In this document: positions 1 to 29,283 of the stretch, piece by piece
How the letters are laid out: each line of letters begins with the position of its first letter
Position numbering within the stretch: position 1 is the first letter of the stretch
IMG/VR virus record: IMGVR_UViG_3300031758_006513
Span: 1-31,737 of that record
Reading direction: 5' to 3' (one strand)
DNA: 31,737 nucleotides
Origin: a virus
Made by a program: the position numbers and the translations under genes
The notes under the pieces: generated by a model
What the model saw: the letters and a program-made list of their open reading frames with translations, nothing else
Database searches by the model: none
What the model was told of the DNA's origin: nothing

Positions 1-20
1 CCTCAAAAATAATTAAAAAA

Positions 21-9866: not shown

Positions 9867-10304
9867 ATGAGTTATGAAAACCCTTGGAGATATCAAGGAA
9901 GGATATTTGAATCAGAAGATATTCAAGATTATTTTGGGTTTGTTTATTTAATTGAATGTTCTCAAACTAACAGAAAATATTTGGGTAGAAAATACTTTTG
10001 GTCTTTTAGAACTCCCAAAGGAAAGAAAAGAAAAGTAAAACAAGAATCAGATTGGAAAAATTATTATGGTTCTTGTCCTGAGTTAAAAGAAGATATAAAA
10101 AAAATAGGAAAGGATAAGTTTCAAAGAACTATTTTATCACTTCATAAAACTGTTGGTAAAACCAACTATGAAGAAACAAGGCAATTGTTCTTAAACAATG
10201 TCTTAACTGAGTCTCTTGACAATGGGTTTCCTGCGTATTATAATTCGAATATACTTTCGAGATATTTTAGGAAGGATTACTTCAATGAAGATTCACGCCA
10301 ATAA
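9867..10304 (+). CDS. SegE-like GIY-YIG endonuclease domain protein
   Basis: The 145-residue product has a compact GIY-YIG-type core: FGFVYLIECSQTNRKYLGRKYFW (the FVYLI and YLGRK strands in place of GIY and YIG), then SDWKNYYGSCPELKEDI, an Arg/His-rich strand, and YEETRQLF, whose Glu sits where the metal-binding Glu is expected. This matches the SegE-type GIY-YIG family found in T4-like phages. It may be a nicking or homing enzyme, or a domesticated nuclease. It has no long DNA-binding tail, unlike the enzyme at 3210. Shine-Dalgarno AGGA lies at 9858-9861. The gene overlaps the next small ORF by 20 bases. Confidence 0.75.
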   Translation: MSYENPWRYQGRIFESEDIQDYFGFVYLIECSQTNRKYLGRKYFWSFRTPKGKKRKVKQESDWKNYYGSCPELKEDIKKIGKDKFQRTILSLHKTVGKTNYEETRQLFLNNVLTESLDNGFPAYYNSNILSRYFRKDYFNEDSRQ

Positions 10305-10482
10305 AATGTGTAATGATGTGATTGATAATCATATTAATCGTATGCATTTTTTGTGTGATGAAAAAAGAATTAGAGATGCTGAAAGTGTCTATAGTGAAAT
10401 TCGTGATTGGGTAATTCAAAAAGAAAATCTTGAAGTGTTATCTTTAGAATATATCAGTGATTATTTTGTAGATTTTGAGTAA
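10285..10482 (+). CDS. Small acidic hypothetical protein, 65 aa
   Basis: The ORF reads MKIHANKMCNDVIDNH and continues with predicted helices (RIRDAESVYSEIRDW, LEVLSLEYISDYFVDFE). I chose 10285 because AGGAAGGA lies about 8-15 bases upstream; an in-frame ATG at 10216 would overlap the previous gene by 89 bases and 10306 is another option. The composition looks coding and the frame sits snugly behind the SegE-like gene. No known family recognised. The -35 element of the next promoter lies over its final codons. Confidence 0.6.
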   Translation: MKIHANKMCNDVIDNHINRMHFLCDEKRIRDAESVYSEIRDWVIQKENLEVLSLEYISDYFVDFE

Positions 10483-10504
10483 AATCTAAATAATCTGATA
10501 TAAT
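10475..10504 (+). promoter_or_regulatory. Sigma-70-type promoter with extended -10
   Basis: TTGAGT (10475-10480), an 18-base spacer, and TATAAT (10499-10504) preceded by TGA, which gives an extended -10. It overlaps the end of the upstream small ORF and should produce a long leader (about 135 bases) before the ATG at 10647. Confidence 0.68.
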
Positions 10505-10507
10505 GAA

Positions 10508-10640
10508 AAAATCCTTAAGGATTCCTATTATGAGTAGGTTTTTATAAAATGAGTTTTTGACTGTGAAAATTAGAGCCGTGGAAGGTGCCTCCCGAGAGGG
10601 TTGGTGTACCCCCCTTCTATACGGATGTAGAGTTCAATTA
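10508..10640 (+). ncRNA. Structured 5' leader RNA of unknown class
   Basis: After the promoter comes a palindrome (AATCCTTAAGGATT, 10510-10523), then a G+C-rich folded block unlike its A+T-rich surroundings. In it CCGT (10576-10579) pairs with ACGG (10621-10624), GAAGG (10581-10585) with CCTTC (10613-10617), and CCC-GAGA-GGG (10591-10600) forms a stem with a GNRA tetraloop. CC/GG (10588-10589 with 10603-10604) can extend this stem across an internal loop. No T-tract follows, so it is not a simple terminator. It could be a riboswitch, a translation control element or a small RNA. I do not recognise the class. Confidence 0.5.
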
Positions 10641-10646
10641 ATTTAA

Positions 10647-11294
10647 ATGCAAAACATCTTTACTGTAGCCCTGCCTCTTCTGGCATCGGTTACAACCAGT
10701 ACGGCATCACTGCCATTCGTCAACTACAAGATGAAAAGTCCTCCTCCCCCGTTGGAAGAGACAATTAAATTGAATCTTGTAGATGAAAAGAAGACAGCAA
10801 TCCGAGAGGTTGCTCCCGAAAAACCAAAAGAGAAAAGGCTAATTTGTAAAGGGTGTTCAGAACATGAACAACTTGCTGTGGATTATTTCCAAGAGCAAGG
10901 AATTAAAGACAGAAACGCCCTTGCTACTATCCTGGGCAATATTAAGCAAGAATCTATGTTCGTGCCTAATATTTGTGAAGGTGGTAGTAGGACTCAGTAC
11001 CATCACTGCGGTCGTGGTTATGGTCTGATCCAATGGACATCTGCCGATCGTTATTATGGATTGGGTGATTTTGCTAAGAGATTTGGTGGAAATCCATCAT
11101 CTCTTCAAACGCAACTTGGTTATCTAACGACTGAGGTTCAGTGGAAACGAATTGCTGATAGGATGAAAACTCCTGGAAAATCTATCAATCGTTACATGGA
11201 CTATGCGTATAGTTGGATTGGTTGGGGCATTCATGGTGCTCGCACATCATATGCTCATGAATATGCTAACCGACTGATCACGGTAGAAGTTTGA
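10647..11294 (+). CDS. Exported lysozyme-like protein (phage tail lysozyme domain)
   Basis: Residues 1-20 resemble a signal peptide (MQNIFTVALPLLASVTTSTA). A Pro/Lys-rich linker (31-65) and a CKGC motif (67-70) follow. The catalytic domain (about 72-215) resembles the phage tail lysozyme family: ALATILGNIKQESMF with the probable catalytic Glu102, GYGLIQWT (124-131), then the Leu-rich QLGYLTTEVQW segment. It probably cleaves peptidoglycan. A signal peptide suggests export to the periplasm rather than holin-dependent release, or it may be virion-bound; the sequence does not decide. Two cysteine pairs (67/70 and 110/121) could form disulfides after export. It has its own promoter and a structured leader. 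Confidence 0.78.
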   Translation: MQNIFTVALPLLASVTTSTASLPFVNYKMKSPPPPLEETIKLNLVDEKKTAIREVAPEKPKEKRLICKGCSEHEQLAVDYFQEQGIKDRNALATILGNIKQESMFVPNICEGGSRTQYHHCGRGYGLIQWTSADRYYGLGDFAKRFGGNPSSLQTQLGYLTTEVQWKRIADRMKTPGKSINRYMDYAYSWIGWGIHGARTSYAHEYANRLITVEV

Positions 11295-11476: not shown

Positions 11477-12976
11477 ATGAAAATCAAACAACTGATGTTT
11501 GCACCTGTTGCTCTTGGTATGGTTGCTCCTGCTTTTGCGAATGCCGCAGATCTTAATATGGCAGCAGTCAATCAATATTCCAGTTCAGAACAAGTCTCAA
11601 GTATCACTCAATTGTCTGATGTAAAGCCTACTGATTGGGCATATCAGGCACTCAGCAATCTTGTCGAACGTTACGGTTGCGTTGCTGGTTATGAAAACGG
11701 AACTTACCTTGGTGGTAAGGCAATGACCCGGTTTGAGGCAGCAGCACTTCTGAATGCTTGTCTGGATCGTGTAACTGAAGTTACCGATGAACTCAGTCGT
11801 CTTTCGAAAGAGTTTGCTGATGAACTACTTGTCATTCGTGGTCGTGTTGCCAAACTAGAAACACAGGTTGGTCAACTTCAGGCAACTCAGTTTTCTACTA
11901 CTACCAAACTCAAAGGTGAAGCAACCTTTGTTCTTGGTGGTGTAGAAGGTGCTCGTCTTGCTAATGGAACCAATGTTGGAAATACTGCATTCAACTATGA
12001 TGTTCGTCTAAACTTTGACACTTCCTTCACTGGTAAGGATTTGCTGAAGACTCGTCTGCGTTCTGGCAACTTCTCTTCACAACCTTTTGGTTCTTCTTCT
12101 TCTCTGTTCAAACTGGACAAGGCAGAAAGTCTTGCAAATGCAGTGCAACTTGACCGTCTTTACTACAGTTTCCCCGCACTTGCTAAAGGTGTGACTCTGA
12201 CTGCCGGTGCTCTGGTTCGTAACACTGAGATGGCATGGACTCCTAGTGCTTACAAGTCTGATATTCTGGACTTCTTTGCTGTTGCTGGTGCTCCTGGTGT
12301 CTATAACAAGGCAACTGGTTCTGGTTTTGGTATTCAGTATGCTCAACCTGGTAAGAAGGGTGGTATTGTTGCTGGTCTGAACTATGTTGCTCAGAATGGT
12401 AATGATAGTTCCAAGGGTCAATTTGATGAGACTGGTGCTCTGAACACTCTTGCTCAGATTGGTTATCGTGCTCCTCAGTATGGTATTGCATTTGGTTATC
12501 GTTATGGAACCGAAGGCACTCGTGTTCGTACCTTCAATGCTATTAACGGTGGTTCTGGTGCTCTTGCTTCTGGTCAATCTTCCAACAGCTATGCTATCAA
12601 TGCTTACTGGCAACCTAAGAAGTCTGGTATTGTACCTTCAATCTCAGGTGCTTATGGTTGGAATGATGTTAGCCTGAATTCTCTTGGTAAGACAACTCCT
12701 ACTGGTGCTACCAACTCCCAGACCTGGTTTGCTGGTCTTCAGTGGAGTGATGTGTTTGCTAAGGGAAATGCTGCTGGTTTTGCCATCGGTGCTCCTGGTA
12801 ATGCTGCTTCACTTACTGATAGTCAGAAGGCTCTGATGTGGGAAGCTTTCTATCGTTACAAAGTCAGCGATAACATTAGCATCACTCCTGCTGTGTTTTA
12901 TGTTTCCAACAATCAAGGACTCAAGAATGCTTCAGATAACTATGGTGGTGTGATTCAGACGACTTTTAGGTTTTGA
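11477..12976 (+). CDS. Cyanobacterial-type outer-membrane porin with SLH domain
   Basis: The 499-residue product has a signal peptide (1-23, cut after AFANA), one SLH domain (about 43-99: ITQLSDVKPTDWAYQAL, then MTRFEAAALLNACLDRV) that would bind peptidoglycan-linked polymer, a coiled-coil stalk (about 100-137, ELSRLSKEF...VAKLETQVGQLQ), and a beta-rich barrel to the end. It closes with the C-terminal Phe (TTFRF) typical of outer-membrane barrels. This is the layout of the major cyanobacterial porins (Som/OprB-like). Codons are richer in G and C than those of its neighbours, suggesting fairly recent acquisition from a host. A phage copy could change nutrient or ion uptake, or mask or replace a receptor. 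Its own promoters and terminator make it a self-contained unit. Confidence 0.9.
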   Translation: MKIKQLMFAPVALGMVAPAFANAADLNMAAVNQYSSSEQVSSITQLSDVKPTDWAYQALSNLVERYGCVAGYENGTYLGGKAMTRFEAAALLNACLDRVTEVTDELSRLSKEFADELLVIRGRVAKLETQVGQLQATQFSTTTKLKGEATFVLGGVEGARLANGTNVGNTAFNYDVRLNFDTSFTGKDLLKTRLRSGNFSSQPFGSSSSLFKLDKAESLANAVQLDRLYYSFPALAKGVTLTAGALVRNTEMAWTPSAYKSDILDFFAVAGAPGVYNKATGSGFGIQYAQPGKKGGIVAGLNYVAQNGNDSSKGQFDETGALNTLAQIGYRAPQYGIAFGYRYGTEGTRVRTFNAINGGSGALASGQSSNSYAINAYWQPKKSGIVPSISGAYGWNDVSLNSLGKTTPTGATNSQTWFAGLQWSDVFAKGNAAGFAIGAPGNAASLTDSQKALMWEAFYRYKVSDNISITPAVFYVSNNQGLKNASDNYGGVIQTTFRF

Positions 12977-28393: not shown

Positions 28394-29283
28394 AATCATT
28401 AGTAACAGGTGGAGCAGGATTTATTGGATCAAATCTTGTTGATGAATTGATTGAACTTGGACATGAAGTTATTGTAATTGATAATGAATTTTCCGATGTT
28501 CATGATCAATTTTATTGGAATACAAAAGCAAAAAATTATAAGTATGATATTCGGGATTATGAAAATACGCGACCTTTGTATGAAGGTGTAGATTATGTAT
28601 TTCATCTTGCTGCTGAGGCAAGGATTCAACCAGCAATTTTAAGTCCTATTGAAGCAGTTAGTATTAATTGTGTAGGTACTGTTACAGTCCTTCAGTGTGC
28701 TAGAGAAGCAGGAGTAAAGAAAGTGATTTATTCTTCTACATCTTCTGGTTATGGATTTAATGAAAAACCAAATCACGAAAATCAACGAGATGATTGTTTA
28801 AATCCATATTCGGTATCTAAAGTTGCTGGAGAAAAACTCTGCAAAATGTATAATGACTTATTTGGTCTTAAAACAATTTCCTTTAGGTATTTTAATGTTT
28901 ATGGTGAAAGGCAACCTTTAAAAGGACAATATGCTCCAGTTATTGGTATTTTCTTACGTCAACGAAAGGATGGTGAACCTCTTACTATTGTTGGGGATGG
29001 GGAACAACGTAGAGACTTTACACACGTATCTGATGTAGTTCAAGCAAATATTCTTGCAGCAACAAAAGATATTGATGATGAATATTATGGTGAACTTTAT
29101 AATGTGGGTAATGGTGTGAATTACTCAATTAATGAAATTGCAAATGTTATATCTGATAAACAAATAAATATTCCAGCAAGAATTGGAGAATCACGAATTA
29201 CTCTTGCAAATAATGGAAAATTGAGAACCATTTTTGGATGGAGACCTCAAGTAAATTTAATGGATTGGATTAAAACTCAATGA
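28390..29283 (+). CDS. NAD-dependent nucleotide-sugar epimerase/dehydratase
   Basis: An extended SDR: VTGGAGFIGSN (5-15) for NAD, FHLAAEARI, STSSGYG and YSVSKVAGE (catalytic Tyr-x-x-x-Lys), RYFNVYG, then DGEQRRDFTHVSDVV. The whole resembles UDP-glucose/UDP-GlcNAc 4-epimerases (GalE/WbpP type), at 297 residues on the short side. It likely supplies a second activated sugar to the cluster. Whether it epimerises or dehydrates cannot be decided by eye. Confidence 0.88.
   Translation: MKSLVTGGAGFIGSNLVDELIELGHEVIVIDNEFSDVHDQFYWNTKAKNYKYDIRDYENTRPLYEGVDYVFHLAAEARIQPAILSPIEAVSINCVGTVTVLQCAREAGVKKVIYSSTSSGYGFNEKPNHENQRDDCLNPYSVSKVAGEKLCKMYNDLFGLKTISFRYFNVYGERQPLKGQYAPVIGIFLRQRKDGEPLTIVGDGEQRRDFTHVSDVVQANILAATKDIDDEYYGELYNVGNGVNYSINEIANVISDKQINIPARIGESRITLANNGKLRTIFGWRPQVNLMDWIKTQ

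Follow-up and report, generated by a model that had tools for sequence, protein, structure and literature searches.

The analysed window is the whole of a 31.7-kb virus record (IMGVR_UViG_3300031758_006513; 31,737 nucleotides) from a T4-like cyanophage. Ribonucleotide reductase genes are followed by the gene of a SegE-type GIY-YIG endonuclease, then by a structured leader and a 215-aa lysozyme gene, the product of which has a hydrophobic, export-type N-terminus. The initial annotation had placed here a promoter with TG before its -10 box, an unclassified structured leader and an exported hydrolase gene, and our analysis bears this arrangement out. The features of the locus are collected in Table 1. 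Further downstream, the phage encodes a 499-aa OprB-type porin with an SLH domain; a gene annotated as porin also lies downstream in S-SRM01 (L001).

Table 1. Features at and around the leader of the lysozyme gene, in window coordinates.
Feature	Position	Strand	Description and basis
SegE-type GIY-YIG endonuclease gene	9867-10304		
sigma70-like early promoter	10475-10504	+	TTGAGT-18-TATAAT, TG before -10; 10 of 12 consensus
Promoter boxes	10475-10480; 10497-10504		TTGAGT; TGA-TATAAT
T4 late (gp55-type) promoter-like motif	10486-10492	+	CTAAATA, inside the early promoter; relatives' pattern
Promoter-proximal hairpin(s)	10510-10543	+	AATCC/GGATT, then CCTA/TAGG and TTTTT; optional in the family; weak terminator-like
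Weak terminator-like hairpin	10524-10543		Between promoter and element
Conserved box	10549-10560	+	ATGAGNNNTTGA; small hairpin YA-UGAGNNNU-UGR or three-codon mini-ORF; family pattern
Structured 5' leader	10570-10646		
Flank 5' of main helix	10570-10575	+	UUAGAG; near-invariant alignment columns
Main hairpin	10576-10624	+	G+C-rich; covariation, RNAalifold, folds
Hairpin helices		+	P1 CCGUG/UACGG; P2 GAAG/CUUC; P3 under the GARA loop
GARA loop	10594-10597	+	GAGA in the window
Bulge	10618-10619	+	UA
Single-stranded 14-mer	10625-10638	+	AUGUAGAGUUCAAU (family AUGU[AC]GA[AG]UUC[AU]AU); alignment of relatives
Spacer	10639-10646	+	A+U-rich, usually without Shine-Dalgarno; relatives' spacing
Lysozyme gene	10647-11294	+	215 aa, AUG at 10647; Phage_lysozyme2 (PF18013), E=2.5e-16; phrog_512
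CUUUAC in lysozyme gene	10658-10663		+12 to +17 of the gene
OprB-type porin gene	11477-12976		499 aa, with SLH domain

The promoter arrangement is shared by the relatives. TTGAC-17..19-TANNNT occurs in 156 of 215 distinct upstream regions and in none of the reversed controls. CTAAATA stands at a constant distance before the -10 box and the G after it. TAAATA-10-ATG was found in 198 of the 215 regions, and the TAAATA motif is nested in the early promoter in 162, a pattern absent from the reversed controls. By analogy with T4 and with the published reading of S-PM2 psbA, the TAAATA motif is likely a gp55-type late promoter (PMC5931967; PMC2988020); the early and late start sites are deduced from these promoter motifs and not from mapped transcript ends. 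The 5'-UTR hairpin of psbA in S-PM2, a phage of the same group, has the same nested early and gp55 promoter architecture (PMC5931967). It belongs to a different gene, and the likeness rests on promoter layout rather than on a comparison of the hairpin sequences. At three other loci (L068, L126 and L144), the late-promoter motif is enclosed by an inverted repeat just upstream of the leader, so that this helix is possible only in early transcripts.

Terminator-like structures lie before the element in 104 of the 215 upstream regions, as in the window. The promoter-proximal hairpin could therefore be the switch of a transcription attenuator, with the main hairpin aiding read-through. We consider this improbable, because half of the family has no terminator-like hairpin, several relatives have a hairpin without a U-run or a tRNA gene at this position, and no conserved alternative pairing was seen between the promoter-proximal and main hairpins. 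The box that follows, ATGAG(4)TGA in the family, is present in 178 of the 215 regions. As an upstream ORF, 98 of 120 boxes fit a three-codon frame, yet the ATG is changed to ATT in several, the spacing to the element varies and a small hairpin fits equally well; the uORF reading was not retained.

The predicted MFE structure of the leader contains both parts of the G+C-rich, self-complementary block described in the initial annotation, the outer helix and the inner stem under its GNRA loop. The fold of the single sequence is unremarkable (z of -0.77 for 97 nt, -0.19 for 172 nt and -0.97 for the hairpin), and with values of only -0.2 to -1.0 a lone sequence could not settle the matter. Across the family, the mean z is -1.6 over 154 distinct hairpins, the ends of which are paired in the MFE structure in 149. 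The 13 tested pairs are formed in 96.9% of cells among 97 distinct sequences, compared to 76.9% after shuffling and 45-56% in slid structures. Cells with double changes number 293, against 73 (sd 13) in shuffled and 18-71 in slid structures; this control is imperfect given the relatedness of the sequences and the many near-duplicate contigs, and what is counted is distinct sequences rather than independent events. The compensatory changes are nevertheless clear, as expected of a structured cis-regulatory RNA, and RNAalifold unaided arrived at nearly the same structure.

Individual pairs illustrate the pattern. P1 pair 3 is GC in 67 sequences, CG in 22, UA in 7 and AU in 1, and P1 pair 4 is UA in 59, AU in 35 and GC in 3; neither pair is broken in any of the 97. 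P1 pair 1 does not vary in the main group, but 21 of 315 sites of the wider family have U-A in place of C-G. With P1 pair 5 left out, there are 43 G-U and 2 A-C pairs. This excess, which a DNA cruciform would not explain, shows that the plus-strand RNA folds; by its substitution pattern, the conserved block belongs to the mRNA strand. The main hairpin is not an intrinsic terminator, in agreement with the initial annotation: its stem is followed by AUGUAGAG and not by a U-run, and no terminator is predicted there.

The hairpin body is of several types, 25 to 58 nt in size, with little constraint on sequence. Many members have a hairpin of only 25-29 nt that differs in sequence and has no conserved internal nucleotides. 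On a tree of 168 lysozyme proteins the P1 type switches 38 times, compared to 41 expected if types were dealt randomly, suggesting that hairpin type and downstream gene are almost independent of each other. Two loci (L019 and L025) differ in their hairpins despite upstream flanks that are nearly the same. Such a pattern could arise by recombination at the leader or by rapid compensatory evolution. A pseudoknot between the GARA loop and UUC was rejected on inspection, as it has three pairs only and is missing in short variants.

This variability speaks against a metabolite aptamer, and also against a hairpin tip that carries an enzyme-specific signal. A riboswitch, in which a small molecule bound by the leader would alter expression of the lytic gene, might be expected from a conserved structured leader directly before a start codon, and riboswitch-like RNAs (glnA, manA, wcaG) exist in cyanophages; the Rfam families wcaG, manA, PhotoRC-II and glutamine riboswitch are likewise cis-regulatory leaders in T4-like cyanophages. 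A hairpin that shrinks to about 25 nt without conserved internal nucleotides has no aptamer or conserved ligand-binding core, and the downstream genes are lytic only, which together make a riboswitch very unlikely.

The most constant part of the element is not the G+C-rich hairpin but the single-stranded AUGUAGAGUUCAAU near the start codon. The initial annotation was thus right about the hairpin and drew the element too narrowly, as the conserved pattern also takes in the 14-mer and the gp55-like motif within the early promoter. The pattern scans also found variant sites with AUGUCGA[AG]UUCUAUU. In 96 of 97 distinct relatives, exactly 8 nt separate the 14-mer from the start codon, and most members have no Shine-Dalgarno sequence. 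The predicted accessibility of the start region is 0.524 with the native hairpin, 0.522 with the hairpin shuffled and 0.520 with it deleted. Simple sequestration or insulation of the start site is therefore unsupported by folding, and the hairpin as an insulator was discarded.

Two other candidates in this region were also set aside. An AUG-UAG start-stop within GGAUGUAG is lost in the AUGUCG variants, and a long-range UUGA/UCAA pairing is broken, uncompensated, by GUGA and UUCUAU variants. Inside the lysozyme gene, CUUUAC is nearly constant, synonymous sites included. Its possible pairing with GUAGAG in the leader is widespread among the lysozyme loci, but changes in the motif go uncompensated and the pairing was not seen in the RlpA genes inspected.

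In T4, the mRNA of the lysozyme gene e is kept silent early by leader RNA structure (PMC3014915). Like ours, the gene e leader (with relatives at soc, 49 and I-TevI) is structured, has early and late promoter signals and precedes a wall-lytic gene of a T4-type phage. Timing of this type, with the ribosome-binding site hidden in a helix of early but not late transcripts, would agree with the kind of gene, the gp55-like motif upstream and the helix that only early transcripts of L068 and L126 could form. However, the Shine-Dalgarno or AUG of gene e lies inside the helix, whereas the start region here is outside the conserved helix and shows weak, scattered pairing only. Late gene e mRNAs lack the 5' arm, whereas the CTAAATA motif here is ~84 nt upstream of the hairpin, and both transcripts, with start sites placed from the motifs, would contain it. 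We regard a gene e-type switch as quite improbable. The split ribosome-binding sites of T4 genes 25 and 38 offer another likeness, a hairpin close to the start codon with a potential influence on initiation. Their hairpin separates Shine-Dalgarno from AUG; the one here has no Shine-Dalgarno before it and stops 22 nt short of the AUG, and the gene 25/38 mechanism fits it poorly.

By BLAST, S-SRM01, DSL-LC03 and DSL-LC02 also have the block ahead of their copy of the lysozyme gene, whereas in S-PM2 and S-CREM1 the gene that follows it encodes an RlpA-like protein instead. Scanning viral contigs for the pattern yielded 121 distinct sites, almost all with the main form. Hundreds of related viruses carry the leader before one of these two unrelated wall-cutting enzymes, and the leader-bearing phages are assigned to Kyanoviridae, cyanobacterial viruses. 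Loci were also retrieved by protein, so that the leader was not its own bait. The element is present at all 78 testable lysozyme loci: among 79 retrieved, 67 match strictly, 11 show small changes or contig-end cuts and one contig starts inside the gene. It is also present at all 80 loci of RlpA, a lytic transglycosylase, 63 of which match strictly; most of the other 17 are changed at the end of the 14-mer. By simple sequence-motif rules, 152 of 186 distinct leader-gene pairs have Phage_lysozyme2 and 23 RlpA/DPBB; the other 11 have truncated or unclassed genes with N-termini of the same types. The two families are unrelated by Pfam; both are wall-lytic and have signal-type N-termini. Two unrelated wall-degrading enzymes therefore use one leader, in a consistent 5' UTR position, and comparison of these loci shows that an exchange of enzyme leaves the leader linked to the lytic function.

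Each of 11 phage genomes or large contigs has one strong copy, and the sole strong model match in S-PM2 is the copy before RlpA. The initial annotation had also offered an independent small RNA, for which the block's own promoter-like sequence and its discrete structure could speak. We find this highly improbable and abandon it, because the block is always followed directly by a gene for lysozyme or RlpA, is conserved up to the AUG at the fixed spacing and has no terminator after it. No convincing antisense partner was found in six phage genomes at 3 mismatches. A second covariance-model match in the window (29211-29262, 26.5 bits) is inside coding sequence and probably due to chance.

The association has its limits. 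In RN05-S the 14-mer persists beside a short hairpin (35 bits), and weaker traces are left in S-RIM8 and S-CAM7. No recognisable element was found at the gene in S-ShM2, S-MbCM100, Syn9, S-CAM1, S-WAM1, Sf-CH11 and S-SZBM1, several of which have very short leaders. Many marine relatives of the gene are without the element, which is thus no prerequisite for such an enzyme. In the lysozyme homologues of S-WAM1 (L343), Sf-CH11 (L346) and S-SZBM1 (L342) the signal-type segment and the leader are both missing; in Syn9 and S-CAM1 the segment is present and the leader absent. When 84,980 bacterial and archaeal species genomes were scanned for host copies, 6 pattern matches turned up, none cyanobacterial and none credible; the best rescored at only 14.4 bits.

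The element matches no family in Rfam 15 at the gathering threshold, and nothing credible up to E=10; with its covariation and strict gene association, it fits the description of an unclassified leader given initially. The authors of the S-CREM1 genome, searching it against Rfam, found abiF, wcaG, manA and glnA only (PMC9964418); the element, at 38,085-38,175, is not among the RNAs they listed. It is in no RNA database, although absence from Rfam and the open-access literature is no proof that it has not been seen before. Other RNA genes and motifs occur in these phages. Clusters of tRNA genes lie within a few kb of the leader and lytic gene in L001, L003, L005, L283 and L330, and a tRNA gene immediately precedes the leader in L004, L090 and L119. 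In L330, a cyanophage contig, 14 tRNA genes form an array with a tmRNA gene (ARAGORN 1106-1526; Rfam permuted-tmRNA model 1149-1349) at its end, ahead of a copy of the leader with RlpA. Rfam gathering matches were obtained for an abiF RNA in S-SRM01 (L001 5231-5267) and a glutamine riboswitch aptamer in DSL-LC02 (L003 1181-1226).

Comparative analysis thus establishes the structure and gene association of the leader, which probably controls when or how much enzyme is made. Timing of the lysozyme-like enzyme, suggested by the initial annotation, is plausible. The main rival to a regulated operator is a constitutive mRNA stabiliser or translation enhancer without a regulator, in which 5' hairpins protect the transcript and the A/U-rich start lacking a Shine-Dalgarno serves as a standby or S1 landing site. 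The loosely constrained upper hairpin (25 to 58 nt), the scarcity of Shine-Dalgarno sequences and the common promoter-proximal hairpins are consistent with it. It leaves unexplained the conserved 14-mer with its exact spacing, the restriction to wall-lytic genes and the single copy per genome, and the hairpin does not raise the predicted accessibility of the start site. We judge it rather unlikely, though worth serious consideration.

We tentatively favor, at a little short of even confidence, a cis-acting 5'-UTR operator that would act at translation initiation and govern the timing or level of the enzyme. In T4, gp32, gp43 and RegA act as repressors at the regions where translation starts (PMC3014915). 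The gp32 and gp43 autoregulatory operators likewise place a structured element beside an unstructured A/U-rich start region; they have a pseudoknot or a UAAC-type loop, neither of which is conserved in the cyanophage leader, and precede genes of nucleic-acid-binding proteins, whereas the gene here is that of a lytic enzyme. The hairpin lies immediately 5' of the 14-mer, which falls in the zone covered by a starting ribosome. The base of the helix, the 14-mer and the distance to the AUG are constant while the hairpin body varies, which favors recognition of base and 14-mer. The lack of folding support for sequestration or insulation also favors an operator read by a trans-acting factor. The nested sigma70/gp55-type promoter would serve for early as well as late transcription. 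The hairpin base and 14-mer would be the operator for this factor, most likely a phage RNA-binding protein, whose binding would gate 30S initiation. Such gating could ensure that the wall-degrading enzyme is made neither too early nor in excess. It is possible, if doubtful, that a putative phage regulator recognises only the hairpin base and the 14-mer at its fixed distance. The dedicated RNA operator would then be a portable cassette for exchanged lytic enzymes, with a body free to diversify and recombine.

To our knowledge, lysis timing in T4-like cyanophages is poorly understood, and the element offers a small, mutable target for tests of it. In freshwater, estuarine and some marine phages, it marks the gene for a predicted wall-cutting product, a leader kept with its function while the enzyme itself is swapped for an unrelated one.
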